Shown here: positions 6,145 to 18,739 of the stretch, piece by piece
Position numbering within the stretch: position 1 is the first letter of the stretch
How the letters are laid out: every line of letters starts with the position of its first letter
Source of the DNA: a virus
Direction: 5' to 3' (one strand)
Virus record (IMG/VR): IMGVR_UViG_3300037160_000057
Location: 1 to 20,150 of that record
DNA: 20,150 bases
Program-made: the position numbers and the translations under genes
The notes under the pieces: model-generated
Seen by the model: only the letters and a program-made list of their open reading frames with translations
The model's database searches: none
What the model was told of the DNA's origin: nothing

Positions 6145-6701
6145 TGGGATCAGCGTGGGGGAATAGTTGGGGTTTGGTTTCGGTCCTTCCGCCCTCTCCG
6201 GGCGGCGGCGGCGCGATCATCCCCCCGGCACGCCCGACTTCCTTCATCGACGCCATTGAAGTGAGAATCGCGGCGGCCGTCGTCGCCGAACTGACGGCCG
6301 GTGCCTGGGCAACGAACCTCAACGCCCAGCGCAGCTGGAACCCGTGGCTGTCGGGGCAGGACTTGGCCTCGCTGCAAGCCTTCGTGCTGCCGCTGACGAT
6401 CCCGGCCGCGACACGGCAACAGCGGGGTCCGACGTGGGAGTTTGATTACGGCATCGTCATCGACCTGCAACAGTCAGTGGACCTGGACGCGGGCGGCAAC
6501 CCATCGCAGGCGGAGATTGATACGCTGTCTCGGCTCGCTGAACAGGTGATGGACTTTTACCGCGACAACCACCAGCTAACGGGTATGACCGGCTGGTACG
6601 CGGTGACAGTTGAGCGGCCGGAAATCTTCGTCCCGGAGCGGCTGTTTTCTGAGCATGTTTGGGAGTCGTGGATTGAATTAACATTTAGAGGATATCGTTA
6701 A
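6144..6701 (+). CDS. Putative tail terminator / tail completion protein (185 aa)
   Basis: A GTG at 6132 is in frame, but the ATG at 6144 overlaps the previous TAA (TAATG) and has TGGGGA 5-10 bases upstream, so it is preferred. A short N-terminal tail (MGSAWGNSWGLV, then Pro/Gly-rich) precedes an alpha/beta domain from about residue 30: a helix with VRIAAAVVAELTAG, strands around WEFDYGIVIDLQQSV, a helix DTLSRLAEQVMDFYRDN, and a final strand ESWIELTFRGYR. This matches a family I recall immediately before the neck and tube genes, with a layout like tail terminators (gpU/gp37-type): helix, strands, helix, and a last strand ending in an Arg-containing tail. Position directly upstream of the tail-completion and tube genes agrees. 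Confidence 0.58.
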   Translation: MGSAWGNSWGLVSVLPPSPGGGGAIIPPARPTSFIDAIEVRIAAAVVAELTAGAWATNLNAQRSWNPWLSGQDLASLQAFVLPLTIPAATRQQRGPTWEFDYGIVIDLQQSVDLDAGGNPSQAEIDTLSRLAEQVMDFYRDNHQLTGMTGWYAVTVERPEIFVPERLFSEHVWESWIELTFRGYR

Positions 6702-7156
6702 TGTTCGATCTTCACGTTCCTAGCATCGGCTCCATCGAATCGTCGATGGCCAACTTTTTCGACCGGCCCAAGGTCCTTCACGCCGTCGATTCGGCGCGGC
6801 GTAAGGTGCTGTCCAAGTTCGGCGCCTTTGTGCGGACGCGAGATCGGAGCAGCCAGCGGAAACGCAAGGGGATCAGCAAGCCGGGCGCCCCGCCGTCTTC
6901 TCACTTGGGCCTTGTGCGGCAGTTTACTTTTTTCGCCTACGACCCGGAGGCGAAGTCCGTAGTCATCGGGCCGGCCAAGCTGAACCAGCGCAACTCCGAT
7001 ACACTCGTTTCGCTGGAGAAGGGCGGGACCGTCGAGCGGATGTTCAAGGGGCATCGGGTGCAAGCCCATTATCAGTCGCGGCCGCACACGAAGCCGGCCT
7101 TCGACATCGAGTTGAAGAAAATGCCAATGGCCTTTCAGGACCAAGTAAAGGGGTAA
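6701..7156 (+). CDS. Putative HK97 gp10-like neck/tail-completion protein (151 aa)
   Basis: Starts on the last base of the previous stop (TAATG). A helix (KVLHAVDSARRKVLSKFGAF) is followed by VRTRDRSSQRKRKGISKPG, with APPSSH next, then LVRQFTFFAYDPEAKSVVIG and KPAFDIELKKMPMAF. The pattern 'xxARxSxRxRKxxSxPGxPPxSHxG... FxYDxxxxSVVVGP' is a conserved phage family of gp10-like or tail-completion type, normally sitting between terminator and tube genes as here. It likely acts at the neck or tail joint as an oligomeric ring. The highly basic segment at residues about 45-62 could contact nucleic acid or a partner ring. Confident of the family, less of the exact position in the particle. Confidence 0.63.
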   Translation: MFDLHVPSIGSIESSMANFFDRPKVLHAVDSARRKVLSKFGAFVRTRDRSSQRKRKGISKPGAPPSSHLGLVRQFTFFAYDPEAKSVVIGPAKLNQRNSDTLVSLEKGGTVERMFKGHRVQAHYQSRPHTKPAFDIELKKMPMAFQDQVKG

Positions 7157-7160
7157 TACC

Positions 7161-7610
7161 ATGACTCAGCCAATCGCAGAAACCGGCGTACAGTGCGACG
7201 CCTATCTCAACGCGGGGACGTTTGCGGGGCCGGCCTGGGTTCTGATCGCCTCGGCCCGCGACGTGACGCTTCTGAACGAATATACGGAAGCGGACGCCTC
7301 GATCCGCGGCGACTCCGGCCTGGCCTCCACGCTCACCGGCCTGCAAAAGATCGGGGCCGATTTCGAGATTCTCTGGAAGCCCTCATCTCCAGAGTTCGCC
7401 CTGATGTTGGCGTGCTACCTGGGCCGGACGCCGTTGGAGTTTCTTTTCCTGGACGGTCCCGTTTCTGGAGGGTCGGGGGCGCAAGGTTTGCGCATGACCT
7501 GCTTGATAACGAAGTTCTCTCGCAAGGAGCCTCTGGACAATTCGGTCACGGCGGATATTTCCGTGCGGCGTACCATCAGCCTGAACCCTTCCACTTGGTA
7601 CACAGCATGA
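7161..7610 (+). CDS. Major tail tube protein (149 aa)
   Basis: Stacked-ring protein of the tail tube. Residues 1-60 hold WVLIASARDVTLLNEYTEAD, then ASIRGDSGLASTLTGL; the middle has a helix for SPEFALMLACYLG; the C-terminal part reads GAQGLRMTCLITKFSRKEPLD and ISVRRTISL. The order DVTL...EAD.S.RG...... 'FSRxEPLxxxxxxxxxxxPT/S' is a tube protein pattern I recall from planctomycete-type siphoviruses. The length (about 150) fits tube proteins without an extra Ig domain. AAGGGG (7147-7152) lies 8 bases before the start. It is followed by the tail assembly chaperone and tape measure, the normal tube-chaperone-tape order, which strongly supports the call. Confidence 0.72.
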   Translation: MTQPIAETGVQCDAYLNAGTFAGPAWVLIASARDVTLLNEYTEADASIRGDSGLASTLTGLQKIGADFEILWKPSSPEFALMLACYLGRTPLEFLFLDGPVSGGSGAQGLRMTCLITKFSRKEPLDNSVTADISVRRTISLNPSTWYTA

Positions 7611-8080
7611 AATCGTTCAAGGACACCAAGGGCCGCACTTGGCTCCTGACAATCACCGTCGCCGCCGTCAAGCGCGCGAAGTCGCTCACGGGCGTGGATT
7701 TGTACACGCTGCCGGACGACGGCTTGAAGCCGCTCGCGGAACTGATGCGTGACGTGGTGAAGCTGGTGGACGTGCTGTTTGTGTTGGCACGCGACCCCAA
7801 CGGCGGGCCGCCGACTTCGGACGAGGACTTCGCCGAGGGCCTGGCCGGGGATGCGTTGGGCGATGCGTCCGACGCCTTTGTGGAGGCGCTCATTGATTTT
7901 TTCCCCAGGGCGGGAGCGAGGAAAGCTCTCACGGCGGTTCAGAGCAAGGCGCAGCAGGTGCGGGAAGTGATGCTTCGGAACGCGATGAAGGATCTAGAGA
8001 AGATCGACCCGGAGGATCTGGCACAGAAGATATTGGCTGGGAAAGCGTCGTCTGGAAAATCGCCGGCCGACTCGGAATAG
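7607..8080 (+). CDS. Tail assembly chaperone, short (zero-frame) product, lambda gpG-like
   Basis: Starts at the ATG overlapping the tube gene stop (ATGA); a longer in-frame ORF from 7193 only shadows the tube gene. The 157-residue product is mostly helical: MKSFKDTKGRTWLLTITVAA, a helix KRAKSLTGVDLYTLP, a hydrophobic stretch VVKLVDVLFVLARDP, then DEDFAEGLAGDALGDASDAF and VEALIDFFP. Residues 1-100 match chaperone-type proteins I recall upstream of tape measures. The sequence contains a slippery run at codons 97-100 (D-F-F-P). Ribosomes staying in frame finish with a helical basic/acidic tail ending ADSE; those slipping -1 make the longer form. Such chaperones normally coat the tape measure during assembly and leave before the virion is complete. 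Confidence 0.72.
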   Translation: MKSFKDTKGRTWLLTITVAAVKRAKSLTGVDLYTLPDDGLKPLAELMRDVVKLVDVLFVLARDPNGGPPTSDEDFAEGLAGDALGDASDAFVEALIDFFPRAGARKALTAVQSKAQQVREVMLRNAMKDLEKIDPEDLAQKILAGKASSGKSPADSE

Positions 8081-8310
8081 ACCCCGAGCCGCGGTCGTTG
8101 CGTGAGCTGTGCTGGATGGACGCGGCGAGGCAGGAGGCGGACTGGAACCACACGGCGTTGCTGGCGTGCCTCTTGTTCAACGCGAACCGCGACCCGAAGA
8201 AAACCGCAGCCGCGACGCCGGCGACCTTCAACCCCTACTCGCCGCGACCGAAGCGGATAGAAACGCCCAAGGTAAGGTTGCGCGACCTGAAGTCAGCGTA
8301 TGTGAGGTGA
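7607..8310 (+). CDS. Tail assembly chaperone, -1 frameshift extension product, lambda gpGT-like
   Basis: Fusion product of about 234 residues: 99-100 codons in the starting frame, then a -1 shift at 7897-7906 into the frame that runs open from 7897 to the TGA at 8308-8310. The extension begins with a Gly/Ser/Glu-rich linker where both frames overlap. It then has a compact conserved-looking domain starting about 8036 (WESVVWKIAGRLGIDPEPRS), followed by LRELCWMDAARQEADWNHTA, LLACLLFNANRDPKK and FNPYSPRPKRIETPK. That domain begins upstream of any ATG or GTG in its frame (first candidates are TTG 8098 and ATG 8122), so independent translation would truncate it. Position between tube and tape measure is exactly that of lambda G/GT. 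Extension proteins in this position typically recruit tape measure and tube. Confidence 0.72.
7882..7930 (+). other. Programmed -1 ribosomal frameshift signal (SD-like element, slippery run, hairpin)
   Basis: Three parts in order. GGAGG at 7882-7886 ends 10 bases before the slippery run, the distance at which SD-like elements stimulate -1 shifts in dnaX-type sites. TTTTTTCCCC at 7897-7906 supplies two in-phase slippery heptamers, T TTT TTC (7897-7903) and T TTC CCC (7900-7906), read in the chaperone frame as GAT TTT TTC CCC. A hairpin follows after 5 bases: GGGAGC (7912-7917) with GCTCTC (7925-7930), six pairs including one G-U, loop of 7. The -1 frame has a TGA just before the run (7894-7896) and is then open to 8307. 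Confidence 0.75.
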
Positions 8311-8313
8311 ACG

Positions 8314-9987
8314 ATGGCGGGCAACCAGACTCAGATTCGGGCCGGCAAAGCGTTCGTCGAGCTCGGCACGAAAGACGACAAGCTGCGCGAAGGCTTGAAG
8401 AAAGCCAAAGAGCGTTTGGAAAAGTGGGGCGAGTCAATCCGCGGCGTCGGCGAACGGCTCGCTGGGCTGGGCGCGGCAGGCATCGCCAGCCTGGGCGGTC
8501 TGTCGGTCCACTTCGCCGACGCGGCTGTCGATGCCAATAACCTGTCGATACGCACGGGTGTAGCGCTCGAGGAGATCCAGGCGCTCGCCGGGGCCGCCGG
8601 CGGCGTCGAGGTCCTGGAGCATGCGTTCGACAAGATCGCTGAGAAAATCGACGAGGCAAGGCAGGGCGGGGGCGAAGCGGCGAACGCCTTTGCGCGTCTG
8701 CATCTCTCGGTGGGGCAGCTGCTGAAACTGCGGCCCGACGAACAATTCAAACTCGTCGCTGAGCAGCTGGCCAATTTGAAAGACAAGGCGGCGCAAACCA
8801 ACCTCGTCAAGCAGATTTTCGGCCGCGGCGGCGCCGAGCTGATTCCGCTCCTAACGAAAGGCGCGAAAGGCATTGAGGAGCTGGAAAAGCGGTTTAAGGC
8901 GCATCACACCATTTTCACCCAGGCGGATGTGGCGACGGCCAAGGCGTTCAAGCTCACGATGTCCGACCTGACAGGCGACCTGGAGCGCGTCGGCCTCGCC
9001 ATCGGCAAGGCGGTCCTGCCCTACCTGGAAATGTGGGTGACAAAGCTGGTTCCCGTCATTGATTCAGCCGTGAAATGGATCGACACGAATCAGGAGCTGA
9101 TCGTCAACGTGGCCGAATGGGCCGGCGCCGCCGTCGCGGGCGGCATCGCTCTCATCGGGCTGGGGTATGCGTTTTCCTACCTCGCCATGCGCGTCGGCGT
9201 CGCGTATCAAATTCTGTCCTTCGCGCTGGGATCGTGGATGCTGCTGCCGGCCTTGGCGGTCGGGGGGATCGCTGCCGTGCTTTACTTCGCCGGAGCGTTC
9301 GACGCCTCGATGGGGGACGTGAAAGAGTCCTGGGGCGGCGTGGTGGATGCGATCCGGGCGGGGGACTTGGAGCTGGCGTGGAAGGTCGTCATTGCCGGGG
9401 GGAAGGCCATCTGGCTCGACTTCCGCAACTGGCTTGCCGATACCTGGGACGCTATGGTTTTGGTCGCGTTTAACGCGGGAAACGAGATCGAGCGGAGCTG
9501 GAACGACACGATTACGAATCTCAAAATCGGCTGGGAAGGTCTGCAGGAAGCGATCGGCCTGGCAAGCAAAGCCGCCGCCGATCAAGAGTACAAACGCCTC
9601 GACGATGAGCTGCGGGCAAACGACGCAAACGCCGACGCCAAGATTGATGCGCTAACGAAGGTTCAGGGGGCAGCCAAGGACGCTCGCCAAAAGGAGTTGG
9701 ACGACGTGCAAGGCGAATTGCACGGGCTGACCCAGAAGGCGGCGAAGGAGGCGGCGGCGGCGAAGGCGCCCAAGGAAATGCCGGCTTTCACGCTGCCGGG
9801 TTTGCCGCAGCCGGCCGGAATGCACGGCGAATCGGTCGGCTCGTTTAGCGCGGCGGCGGCGGGCGGGTTAGGGCTGGGCACCAGCACAACAGGATACCTG
9901 CAATCGACCGCGCAGGCAACGCAGGCGACGGCGACGAACACGGCGGCGATAGCGGCGGTAATCGGGTCTGTTTTCGCGGTGGCGTAA
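8314..9987 (+). CDS. Tail tape measure protein (557 aa)
   Basis: Sets tail length and is probably ejected with DNA. Start has GAGG (8304-8307) six bases upstream. Residues 1-60 are a charged helix (FVELGTKDDKLREGLKKAKE, RLEKWGESIRGVGERLAG), typical of tape measures. Residues about 70-110 include NNLSIRTGVALEEIQALAGA, the small motif seen in many tape proteins; about 120-230 has the pattern 'LRPDEQFKLVAEQLANLKDK' to 'RGGAELIPLL'. A hydrophobic region at about 266-330 (WAGAAVAGGIALIGLGYAF, LLPALAVGGIAAVLYFAGAF) could insert in the host membrane. Then Trp-rich helices, a charged helix (YKRLDDELRANDANADAKID), and an Ala/Gly/Thr-rich tail. 557 residues is short; at the usual ~0.15 nm per residue it implies a tail near 80 nm (inference). 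Confidence 0.82.
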   Translation: MAGNQTQIRAGKAFVELGTKDDKLREGLKKAKERLEKWGESIRGVGERLAGLGAAGIASLGGLSVHFADAAVDANNLSIRTGVALEEIQALAGAAGGVEVLEHAFDKIAEKIDEARQGGGEAANAFARLHLSVGQLLKLRPDEQFKLVAEQLANLKDKAAQTNLVKQIFGRGGAELIPLLTKGAKGIEELEKRFKAHHTIFTQADVATAKAFKLTMSDLTGDLERVGLAIGKAVLPYLEMWVTKLVPVIDSAVKWIDTNQELIVNVAEWAGAAVAGGIALIGLGYAFSYLAMRVGVAYQILSFALGSWMLLPALAVGGIAAVLYFAGAFDASMGDVKESWGGVVDAIRAGDLELAWKVVIAGGKAIWLDFRNWLADTWDAMVLVAFNAGNEIERSWNDTITNLKIGWEGLQEAIGLASKAAADQEYKRLDDELRANDANADAKIDALTKVQGAAKDARQKELDDVQGELHGLTQKAAKEAAAAKAPKEMPAFTLPGLPQPAGMHGESVGSFSAAAAGGLGLGTSTTGYLQSTAQATQATATNTAAIAAVIGSVFAVA

Positions 9988-13371: not shown

Positions 13372-15240
13372 ATGAGCCTTATCCTCCAGCAAACCGATGG
13401 AGCATCGGCTGACCCTGTAGGAGCCTTTGGCACAGGGCTTGGCACGCCTTCCAGCAGCTTTTCCAAGGCGGCTACAGTTGGCGGGACGCCTGGGACAGGA
13501 TCGAACACGGTAGGCAATTCTAGCAGCACCAGCAGCCCCGCATTCGGATTCATGTTTGAGGCTGCGTCGTCTCAAGTCGGTAGTTTGAGTTTCCCGTTGG
13601 GAGAGCTGTGGACTTGCAATTTCGACGCCCTCACGATTTCGGCCAACGTCACTTGGGACTCACTTTACTTTATCCGCATCAACAGCTCTGGCGTCGCCCA
13701 ACAGACCATCGCCTCCGTCACCGGATTGGCCCAGGCGCTCAGCCTTGGAACGAACTCGACCCTTTCTCTTTCTGGGGCCTCTGTCAACTTCGGCGCGACC
13801 GACCGATTGGTTGTGCTGTTCGGGTTTAACTGGTCTGCCTTAGGGGTGTTTACCGTCAAGCCGGATTTGGCAATCACGGTTGTCGCCGCTCCCACCAACC
13901 CGCCAACGGCCCAACCTTCCCAGCACTTCGACCCGATCCCGGATTACAACGCGGCCTGGTGGCAGATCTCGCAATACCAGCCGCGTGTTTTGCCTCCCAA
14001 CTATATTCCGACGCCGCCGCCTCCGGCTCAACCTTCCCAGCGCTTTGACCCGCCGTTTGACGCGGCGGCGTCATGGGTTCCGTGGCAACCGCCGAGGCCG
14101 AACAAGCAATTCCTAACGCTGCTGATTCCTCCGGCGCCGGTGCAGCCTTCGCAGCGATTCGACCCCCTTCCAGACCATAATGGCGTGTGGTGGCAGCCGG
14201 CGCCGCCGCCCGTTCGGGCGCTTCCATCCGTCCTCGCGCGGCCATCGCCGCACCAGCCCGATCAGCGTTTTGACGCGGCGGCGCCGGCTGATTTCCACTG
14301 GTGGGAAACGCCGGTCAAGACACCCCCGCCCGTGGCGACGGCAAGCCTTGTCCCGAGGCGGCAGGCGGACCAGCGGTTTGACGCGATGCCGACGTTGGAT
14401 TCGGTTTGGTGGGCGCGACCCGCTGAAATCATCCCGTCTTCCGGCGGCCAGGTCACGCGGCAACCCGACCAGCGCTTCGACGCGCCGCCGGCTTTCGATG
14501 CGGTCTGGTGGACGCCGGCGGCAAAGATTCCGCTGACGAGCGGCAGTCGGATTACGCGGCAGCCCGTGCAACGGTTCGACGCGGCGCCGCCGACAGATTG
14601 GCTTTGGTGGGAAGCGCAGGCGAGAGCGATTCCTCCGGACCCGGCTCAACCGAATCGGCCGACGGCCGCCCCGTTTCCAGTGGCCGCCGATCCGGGCTTT
14701 TTCTGGTGGACGCCGGCCCGGTCGTTCCCAGGTGCGCCGGGGGGCGCACCTGCAGCGAGCCGCCAACCGGACCAACGATTCAACGCGCCGCCGGACGGAA
14801 ACGCTATCTGGTGGCAGACCTATCCGCGTCAGATTCTGGCGCCGCAGCCGGCCCCCATGCGCCAACCGGATCAACGGTTCGATGCGATGCCGGCGCCCGA
14901 CTTCACGGCCTGGTTGCAAATCCGGCCGCGTCAAATGCCAGTGGCCGCGCCGGTCCTGCTGCGTCAACCGGACCAACGATTCAACCACGCCGTCGATCTT
15001 GGGGGAGTCTGGTGGACGCCGCTAGCCCGGGCCTTGCCCCCCACCGCCTCGCCCGTCCCGAGGCATCAGCCGGACCAACGATTTGACGCGCTCCCCGATT
15101 TCAACTATATTTGGTGGCAGCGGCCGACGTTGTTGCTCATGCCGACGTTGCTGATTCTTGGGCCGCCCCGGTTCGGAAATCGCGGCGCCTACCTGCCCGG
15201 TGGATACAACCTCGGCGGCTCCACGAAGGGGGCGAAATGA
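13372..15240 (+). CDS. Large protein with N-terminal beta domain and 12 tandem Trp/Pro-rich repeats (622 aa)
   Basis: Start is preceded by CAGGAG. Residues 1-170 form a Ser/Thr/Gly-rich beta domain (FMFEAASSQVGSLSFPLGEL, later FGATDRLVVLFGFNWSALGV) of the sort found in phage surface proteins. Residues 181-597 are 12 tandem units of 32-39 residues with core Q-P-D-Q-R-F-D-A-x-P-x-x-D-x-x-W-W, each followed by a proline-rich tail. The eighth unit has lost QRFD but keeps the WW; units 2 and 10 have a split Trp. The C-terminus is Gly-rich (GNRGAYLPGGYNLGGS). No signal peptide or transmembrane region. Likely an extended, Trp-studded fibre or binding scaffold; target and role are unknown. Stop overlaps the next start as ATGA. 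Confidence 0.72.
   Translation: MSLILQQTDGASADPVGAFGTGLGTPSSSFSKAATVGGTPGTGSNTVGNSSSTSSPAFGFMFEAASSQVGSLSFPLGELWTCNFDALTISANVTWDSLYFIRINSSGVAQQTIASVTGLAQALSLGTNSTLSLSGASVNFGATDRLVVLFGFNWSALGVFTVKPDLAITVVAAPTNPPTAQPSQHFDPIPDYNAAWWQISQYQPRVLPPNYIPTPPPPAQPSQRFDPPFDAAASWVPWQPPRPNKQFLTLLIPPAPVQPSQRFDPLPDHNGVWWQPAPPPVRALPSVLARPSPHQPDQRFDAAAPADFHWWETPVKTPPPVATASLVPRRQADQRFDAMPTLDSVWWARPAEIIPSSGGQVTRQPDQRFDAPPAFDAVWWTPAAKIPLTSGSRITRQPVQRFDAAPPTDWLWWEAQARAIPPDPAQPNRPTAAPFPVAADPGFFWWTPARSFPGAPGGAPAASRQPDQRFNAPPDGNAIWWQTYPRQILAPQPAPMRQPDQRFDAMPAPDFTAWLQIRPRQMPVAAPVLLRQPDQRFNHAVDLGGVWWTPLARALPPTASPVPRHQPDQRFDALPDFNYIWWQRPTLLLMPTLLILGPPRFGNRGAYLPGGYNLGGSTKGAK
13912..15162 (+). repeat. Tandem coding repeats: 12 units of about 96-117 bp
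   Basis: In-frame repeat units starting with codons for Q-P-[DSV]-Q-R-F-[DN], with unit starts from 13912 to 15067. The sequence diverges between units at the base level while the protein core persists (QRFD, and WW at a fixed distance of about 10 residues). This suggests old duplications kept by selection rather than recent slippage. Unit lengths vary from 32 to 39 residues in the proline-rich tail. Confidence 0.85.
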
Positions 15241-17478: not shown

Positions 17479-17940
17479 ATGCCGCTGGAAAAGCTCATGG
17501 CAAAAGCCACGCTCAGCCCAGAAACCGGATGCCTTGAATGGCAGGGACATAAGGACGACTGGGGATACGGCGTCTATGTGTTGGGCGGTAGGGAAAACCG
17601 CAAGTCATGGAAGGCCCATCGGCTGTCTTGGAGGTTGCAAAAAGGCGAAATCCCAGCCGACCTGTGCGTTCTACACAAATGCGACAACCCATGCTGCATC
17701 AACGTAGACCATCTGTTTTTGGGTACCAATGCTGATAACGTCTTGGATAGAGACACAAAAGGCCGTGGCGCCGATCACTCAGGCGAACTAAACGGCAAGT
17801 CAATCTTAACGGCTGAACAGGTGCAATTGATCCGTGCAAGGTACGTCCCCAAAAAGGTAACGCGGAAGCATTTGGCAGCCGAGTTTGGCGTTTCAGTTTC
17901 GGCGATAAAAAAGGTGGTCAATTATGTCAATTGGAGATGA
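17479..17940 (+). CDS. HNH endonuclease (HNH_3 type) with C-terminal helix-turn-helix (153 aa)
   Basis: Site-specific DNA nuclease, probably a free-standing homing-type element. The HNH core is at residues 47-82: AHRLSWRLQKGEIPADLCVL and H66-K-C-D-N-P-C-C-I-N75-V-D-H78-L-F-L-G-T, followed by DNVLDRDTKGRG; this is the classic phage HNH pattern with the H, N and H in place. The C-terminal third has a helix-turn-helix-like end: LTAEQVQLIRARYVPKKVTR and EFGVSVSAIKKV. It starts 2 bases after the secreted protein gene. Base composition is more AT-rich than its neighbours, especially toward the end. Inserting between an exported protein and a protease gene without breaking them is usual for such elements. 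Confidence 0.88.
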   Translation: MPLEKLMAKATLSPETGCLEWQGHKDDWGYGVYVLGGRENRKSWKAHRLSWRLQKGEIPADLCVLHKCDNPCCINVDHLFLGTNADNVLDRDTKGRGADHSGELNGKSILTAEQVQLIRARYVPKKVTRKHLAAEFGVSVSAIKKVVNYVNWR

Positions 17941-17944
17941 TAAC

Positions 17945-18739
17945 ATGGCCGGACTCATTACCATCCACGACCAGAACTTTCAGGATCACCTCGCGCCGCC
18001 GCCCGGCTACGGCAAGGGGTTAATCCCCCGCAACTTCCGCCAGAAGCCCTACGGCACGCTGATGTTCGCCAAGCCGTTTAGCCTGCCGCTCATCCCTGAG
18101 TCGGATTGGCAGGGCTTGCTCGACGCGCAGAAGGCGGCGAAAGCGCAACTGACCGACATCCGCAACACCGGCATGAACGGTCAGCCGATCCCGAGCCGCG
18201 ACCAGGCGCAGAAAGGTTACTGCTGGGCGCACAGCAGTGTGTCAGCCGCCTTGATCGCCCGCGCGGTCAACGGTGAGCCTTACGCGGATTTGAGCGCCTA
18301 CGCCGTGGCCTGCATCATCAAGAACTACCGGGACGAAGGCGGTGAAGGTTCCGATTCGTTGGAATGGATCGCCCAGAACGGCGTCCCGACTTCGCAGTTC
18401 TGGCCGCAGCAGTCGATGAGCCGGTCGAACGACAACCCAGCGATGCGAGCGAACGCCGCGCTGCACAAGTACACGGAATGGATGGACCTCGACCCGGCGA
18501 ACATGAAGGCCCAACTGGTGACGTGCCTACTGATGGGCATTCCGGTGGTGAGCGATTTCAACTGGTGGTCGCACTCGGTTTGCAGTGTTGACCTTGTGAG
18601 CCTCAACCCCTTCACCACGACCATCTGGAACTCGTGGGGCGACTCCTGGTCGCAGAACGGCATGGGCAATCTGGTTGGTTCAAAAGCCATCCCCGATAAT
18701 GCTTTGGCCGCGATGGTGCAGACGCCTTCGTTGGTGTGA
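17945..18739 (+). CDS. Papain-like cysteine protease (C1 family type, 264 aa)
   Basis: Peptidase-like protein with the complete papain catalytic signature. Numbering from the ATG at 17945: oxyanion Gln87 in RDQAQKGYCWAHSS, catalytic Cys93 (GYCWAHSS), His210 (NWWSHSVCSVDL), Asn229 in IWNSWGDSWSQNG. The spacing Q-x5-C and the NSWG-x-x-W pattern match papain family members. No signal peptide. An in-frame ATG at 17924 (AAGGTGG upstream) overlaps the HNH gene and gives a 271-residue form; ATG 17945 has GGAG 8 bases upstream and lies after the HNH stop, so I prefer it. I recall such NSWG proteins as frequent in planctomycete phages. Possible substrates are virion proteins, a host protein or an antitoxin; unknown. 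Confidence 0.8.
   Translation: MAGLITIHDQNFQDHLAPPPGYGKGLIPRNFRQKPYGTLMFAKPFSLPLIPESDWQGLLDAQKAAKAQLTDIRNTGMNGQPIPSRDQAQKGYCWAHSSVSAALIARAVNGEPYADLSAYAVACIIKNYRDEGGEGSDSLEWIAQNGVPTSQFWPQQSMSRSNDNPAMRANAALHKYTEWMDLDPANMKAQLVTCLLMGIPVVSDFNWWSHSVCSVDLVSLNPFTTTIWNSWGDSWSQNGMGNLVGSKAIPDNALAAMVQTPSLV

Follow-up and report, generated by a model that had tools for sequence, protein, structure and literature searches.

The stretch from 7607 to 8310 of the window, by which we mean the whole 20,150-bp record of an uncultured virus analysed here, very probably forms one translational unit in which a -1 frameshift of the lambda G/GT type yields two tail assembly chaperones. This reading draws on features read directly from the sequences of a family of relatives, namely the frame relation between the two parts (G and T), the conserved slippery codons, selection in two frames, the lack of a start for T, and an SD-like element and a stem that recur in the family. 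Slippage as such, how often it takes place and what the products bind are inferred.

Results

Layout of the locus

The G/T pair sits between a probable major tail (tube) protein gene upstream (7161-7610; PHROG 1407, major tail protein, E 6e-4) and a tape measure protein gene downstream (8314-9987; PHROG 8462, tail length tape measure, E 5e-23), and all features of the locus lie on the plus strand. The stop of the tube gene overlaps the start of G in the sequence ATGA (7607-7610). G, the short form of the chaperone, occupies 7607-8080 in the 0 frame, ends with TAG at 8078-8080 and has 157 aa. Within it, the run TTTTTTCCCC lies in phase at 7897-7906, and the 0-frame codons at 7895-7909 are GAT TTT TTC CCC AGG, which puts both slippery heptamers, T_TTT_TTC (7897-7903) and T_TTC_CCC (7900-7906), in phase. 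A TGA at 7894-7896 shuts the -1 frame immediately 5' of the run; from 7897 this frame is open to 8307 and stops at TGA 8308-8310. Slippage on either heptamer would give the same long protein of 234 aa. The first-pass annotation of this DNA, made from the letters only, had predicted a 157-residue short form and a long form of ~234 residues, and these sizes hold, as do the positions it gave for every element of the signal.

Beyond the run, the -1 frame encodes a Ser/Gly/Glu-rich, poorly conserved linker of ~45 residues (7903-8034), followed by the T domain of the long form (8035-8310, up to the same TGA). The 0 frame encodes there a C-terminal segment found in the short form only (7907-8077), with predicted helices at residues 102-132 and 135-148.

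The signal in the window and in its relatives

Judged by codon resampling of G, the frameshift signal is not significant in the window alone. At least one in-phase XXXYYYZ heptamer is present in 58% of G genes redrawn from the codon usage of the window, the tandem overlapping pair has P = 0.10, TTTTTTC at the 7897 site has P = 0.07 given the protein, and 28% of the redraws leave the -1 frame open throughout the overlap. As the signal is unremarkable in this one sequence, the verdict rests on the relatives, where sequence comparison places it far beyond chance. Another in-phase TTTTTTC, at 6928-6934 in the neighbouring gene 6701-7156, is followed by a -1 frame open for at least 60 codons and is probably a chance occurrence.

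Starting from G, from T and from an alignment of either, the searches gathered 284 loci, some of which are overlapping views of one contig; a representative set of 173 relatives was kept at less than 90% nucleotide identity. G is conserved in 283 records, the window counted among them, and a bacterial genome collection contributed 39 loci, mostly on contigs of Planctomycetota MAGs. The nearest relatives found share ~51% amino acid identity in G, and the constraint is therefore inferred from the family and not from near kin. The G-based search patterns demanded a related peptide, not particular codons, and nominal P values for codon constraint, which ignore phylogeny, were set aside.

Of the 203 records that have both parts, 201 have T in the -1 frame relative to G and none has the two in the same frame; among the representatives, the -1 relation is found in 172 of 173. 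TTTTTTC occurs in phase at the aligned codon in 148/173. These two counts bear out the earlier proposal of a lambda-type -1 shift between the tube and tape genes. The frame break in itself, and nothing else, would fit a broken fusion or a sequencing error, with G and T no longer joined; this reading is refuted by the family data, that is, by the persistence of the -1 relation in so many diverged relatives and by purifying selection in both frames (see below), and its probability is negligible.

The codons at the site are nearly frozen. GAT is used for 134 of 135 Asp residues at the site, against a background of 0.35 upstream in the same genes, and TTT for 167 of 172 Phe residues, against 0.24; the second Phe codon of the run is TTC in 150/151. 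The same was seen in loci found only via T (GAT 44/44, TTT 57/57, TTC 50/51). A codon-substitution test around the run had been suggested by the first-pass annotation, and at the run the GAT and TTT counts reveal synonymous constraint at the level of the family.

The first heptamer is present in 149 representatives (148 with TTTTTTC and one with TTTTTTT), 40 of which do not have the second, whereas the second without the first was found only in the relative L005. This asymmetry identifies T_TTT_TTC as the core of the site, in agreement with slippage propensities determined in E. coli, where UUN codons slip more than CCN codons and homogeneous-pyrimidine motifs perform better (PMC4066793). T_TTC_CCC, present in 110/173 relatives, appears from the alignment to be dispensable. 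CCC is nonetheless over-used for the Pro after the two Phe residues (53/133, against a background of 0.20), which suggests that the second heptamer may add slipperiness. Both this over-use and L005, which has just that one of the two heptamers, would be expected if slippage took place mainly on T_TTC_CCC, but the 40 relatives with the first heptamer alone, against one with the reverse, make this unlikely. Given that both heptamers lead to the same product, T_TTC_CCC may just add efficiency to slippage on T_TTT_TTC.

Coding in two frames and the absence of a start for T

Across 398 pairs of moderately close relatives, 72% of the differences upstream of the run fall on 0-frame third positions. 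This share is 55% just 3' of the run and 45% in the later overlap, and in the T domain 65% of the differences fall on -1-frame third positions. Such a pattern indicates that G is still coding past the run, that the -1 frame there encodes a loose linker and that T is coded in the -1 frame; purifying selection thus acts on both frames. From the run onward, 170/172 relatives have an open -1 frame, against 26% under synonymous resampling, and this frame starts exactly at the run in 10 representatives.

The first ATG, GTG or TTG of the -1 frame in the window is the TTG at 8098, within the conserved T domain, which confirms the earlier remark that this frame begins before any ATG or GTG. The TTG lies shortly after the G stop at 8080, and T could in principle be a separate gene translated by reinitiation after that stop, from this TTG or from a non-standard start. 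However, a start at 8098 would remove the conserved WKIAGRLGIDP, in which A19, G20 and P26 are invariant in alignment A4. A start codon for the second ORF, which the first-pass annotation had named as grounds against its proposal, was looked for upstream of T in the family: among 113 representatives, none has an ATG between the run and the T domain, 93 have no ATG, GTG or TTG between the run and the conserved T motif, and none has a start plus SD (2/172 in a wider set). Reinitiation also leaves the frozen GAT TTT TTC codons and the open overlap unexplained, and we regard it as very improbable next to a frameshift within G.

Stimulatory elements

An SD-like GGAGG lies at 7882-7886, 10 nt 5' of the run. 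It is found at the same spacing in 65/113 relatives, against 29.7 expected by codon usage (z 7.9), and codon preference could account for part of its occurrence. Downstream, a 6-bp hairpin (7912-7930) begins 5 nt 3' of the run, with a stem formed by GGGAGC (7912-7917) and GCTCTC (7925-7930), one pair being G-U. In the window this hairpin is not more stable than shuffled sequences (z -1.38 for 29 nt and +0.65 for 47 nt) or synonymous shuffles (z +1.24). Across the family, the minimum free energy in 45-nt windows reaches its lowest value 5 nt after TTTTTTC, with -17.6 kcal/mol versus about -11.5 kcal/mol elsewhere. At this offset the mean z against synonymous shuffles is -1.37 (controls, -0.42 to +0.28), and z falls below -1.5 in 49% of cases, compared with 10-15% at control offsets. 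Stems of at least 6 bp at +4 to +12 occur in 45/113 relatives, versus 4-20 at control offsets. The stem is thus conserved across the family and weak in the window phage.

The tandem in-phase heptamers, GGAGG and the 6-bp hairpin described in the first-pass annotation are all present, but its description of the signal as unusually complete was overstated, because 40 of the 149 relatives with the first heptamer lack the second, and because the hairpin of the window is weak. Three further candidates were discarded. One, a putative attenuator at a second free-energy minimum ~70 nt 5' of the run, is accounted for by synonymous shuffles (z -0.42). Pairing of GGAGGAA with the T-run, possible in 54% of the relatives, looks like trivial purine/pyrimidine complementarity. 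The lambda-like GGGAAAG at 8039-8045 does not have the phase that a shift from the 0 to the -1 frame requires.

The distances of these elements also bear on whether the -1 reading could be made by RNA polymerase slipping at the T6 run instead of by the ribosome. A conserved homopolymer run would be compatible with such slippage, and both transcriptional and ribosomal slippage yield mixed products; six Ts are, however, short for polymerase slippage. Moreover, the phase for tandem tRNAs is kept, L005 has T_TTC_CCA with only five Ts, another relative (L282) has changed to A_AAA_AAG, and the SD-like site and the stem are enriched at ribosomal distances. Polymerase slippage is consequently a most improbable source of the -1 reading, and slippage by the ribosome is preferred.

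Exceptional relatives

According to the first-pass annotation, relatives with both ORFs intact and the run absent would speak against a frameshift. Such relatives exist, since 24/173 representatives do not have the first heptamer; the frame relation is kept in all but one of the 173. One of the 24 is L005, which keeps the second heptamer only, and the other 23 have neither. Fourteen representatives read TTT TCC CCN at the site and retain the T_TTT tetramer. This group, with TTT TCC CCG or CCC (L149, L151, L207-L211, L216, L218, L219, L224, L231, L108 and L155), has no canonical heptamer at the aligned site, and the -1 relation of T to G is unchanged; in L224, a stop separates the site from T. 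Other sites among the representatives without a heptamer are TTT ACC, TTC TGC, CTT ACC and TTC CTC.

In L282 the T-run is lost and A_AAA_AAG is found 12 nt downstream, precisely where the -1 frame opens, so this phage has apparently swapped one slippery motif for another. In L144 and L145, which come from the same contigs as L214 and L215, T is in the +1 frame of G and the site reads TTT CCC CGA, with one T fewer than in the sister L149. Such a site would suit a +1 slip on CCC_C, and the direction of the frameshift may possibly have changed within the family. Nothing in the data other than these exceptional relatives speaks against the simple model, and the window is not one of them.

Identity of the proteins

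In 44 of 60 relatives, the T domain has a match to Pfam PF06223 (Phage_tail_T, Minor tail protein T) at E <= 0.01, the best E being 1e-5. For T of the window, PF06223 is the only match at E <= 10, with an E of 0.086 that is below the curated cut-off; G and T of the window, searched alone against Pfam and PHROG, gave no match above cut-off. An AF2 model of G (pLDDT 88.9) was compared with 350,542 PDB chains using Foldseek, and the HK97 chaperone 2ob9 ranked first and second (E 0.12-0.13, probability 0.77-0.84, TM 0.30-0.45), a match that is weak in absolute terms. The T domain had no structural match in the PDB; its fold gave weak matches to viral models, with GT of phage N15 ranked second and two proteins named 'Minor tail T' in the top seven. 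Searches of PDB sequences with the G and T alignments found no match, no relative emerged when G and T were compared by tblastn with 50,697 GenBank phages, and the literature covered contained no report of Planctomycetota phages with such a frameshift. The chaperones belong to an undescribed family.

Discussion

In phage lambda, gpG binds the tape measure protein and the rare gpGT brings the tube protein through T, and the ratio between the two matters (PMC5009743). By analogy, most ribosomes would read 7607-8080 of the window and produce the 157-aa G, which would coat the tape measure protein. A minority would be paused by the downstream stem-loop and drawn back by pairing of GGAGG with the 16S rRNA, and would slip by -1 with two tRNA-Phe on T_TTT_TTC, or else at T_TTC_CCC, one codon further on. 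The resulting 234-aa GT would combine 99 residues of G with the flexible linker and a lambda-T-like helical domain, and this rare form would recruit the tube protein.

The window and lambda share the position between tube and tape genes, the 0-frame G, the startless -1 T and the in-phase XXXYYYZ heptamer, and relatives of T in the window family match Phage_tail_T. The slippery motif is different, being G_GGA_AAG in lambda and T_TTT_TTC in the window. The HK97 tail assembly chaperone (2ob9), which supplied the top two matches of G, has the same gene role, with a low similarity and no match at the level of PDB sequences. Frameshifting of 6-7% has been measured for two genes of an HK97-like cluster (PMC3711429). 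Concerning the arrangement of run, SD-like element and stem, the window also resembles the dnaX-type signal, in another gene and with other slippery letters. In E. coli, that -1 signal has an SD-like element about 10 nt upstream and a downstream hairpin.

The mechanism is a textbook one, and what varies is the architecture within this known kind. The lambda shift occurs near the end of G, whereas that of the window lies about 58-60 codons before the G stop: the end of TTTTTTC is 174 nt from the 0-frame stop in the window, with a family median of 195. The usual position near the 3' end, which we do not take as a defining feature of the lambda G/GT type, is thus not found here, since described shifts of tail chaperones lie on average 26 and 36 nt from the G stop (PMC10885494). 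With a shift ~60 codons before the stop, the short form has a 58-residue C-terminus of its own and the long form shares only 99 of the 157 G residues, so that the two products differ in their C-termini and are not nested, a point that the first-pass annotation missed. The segment absent from GT is largely helical in the model and is under 0-frame selection. The chances seem to us evenly poised that G and GT act as alternative C-terminal isoforms, in which a conserved 58-residue helical tail is swapped for a flexible linker and the T domain. If so, the tail of G would have a job that GT must not do, such as the packing of chaperones against one another along the tape measure protein.

With these results, the tail-chaperone frameshift known from lambda is extended to a large family of uncultured phages whose links are mostly to Planctomycetota. 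Its signal is preserved almost to the letter in over 140 distinct relatives, many of which have such links. The relatives without the second heptamer, with A_AAA_AAG, with the five-T site or with T in the +1 frame constitute natural experiments, which could be used to test what a slippery site needs in bacteria and why the short chaperone keeps a C-terminus of its own.

Elsewhere in the window, positions 2-1126 encode a major capsid protein, truncated by the contig end, that matches the C-terminal half of PHROG fused protease-capsid families. The gene at 13372-15240 encodes a Pro/Trp-rich protein with no Pfam match and with ten QRF(D/N)-containing repeats, spaced mostly by 33-38 aa. An HNH_3 endonuclease gene, possibly of a homing endonuclease, is found at 17479-17940 (E 5.6e-12), and at 17924-18739 the phage contig encodes a papain-family cysteine protease (PF00112, E 3.7e-6).
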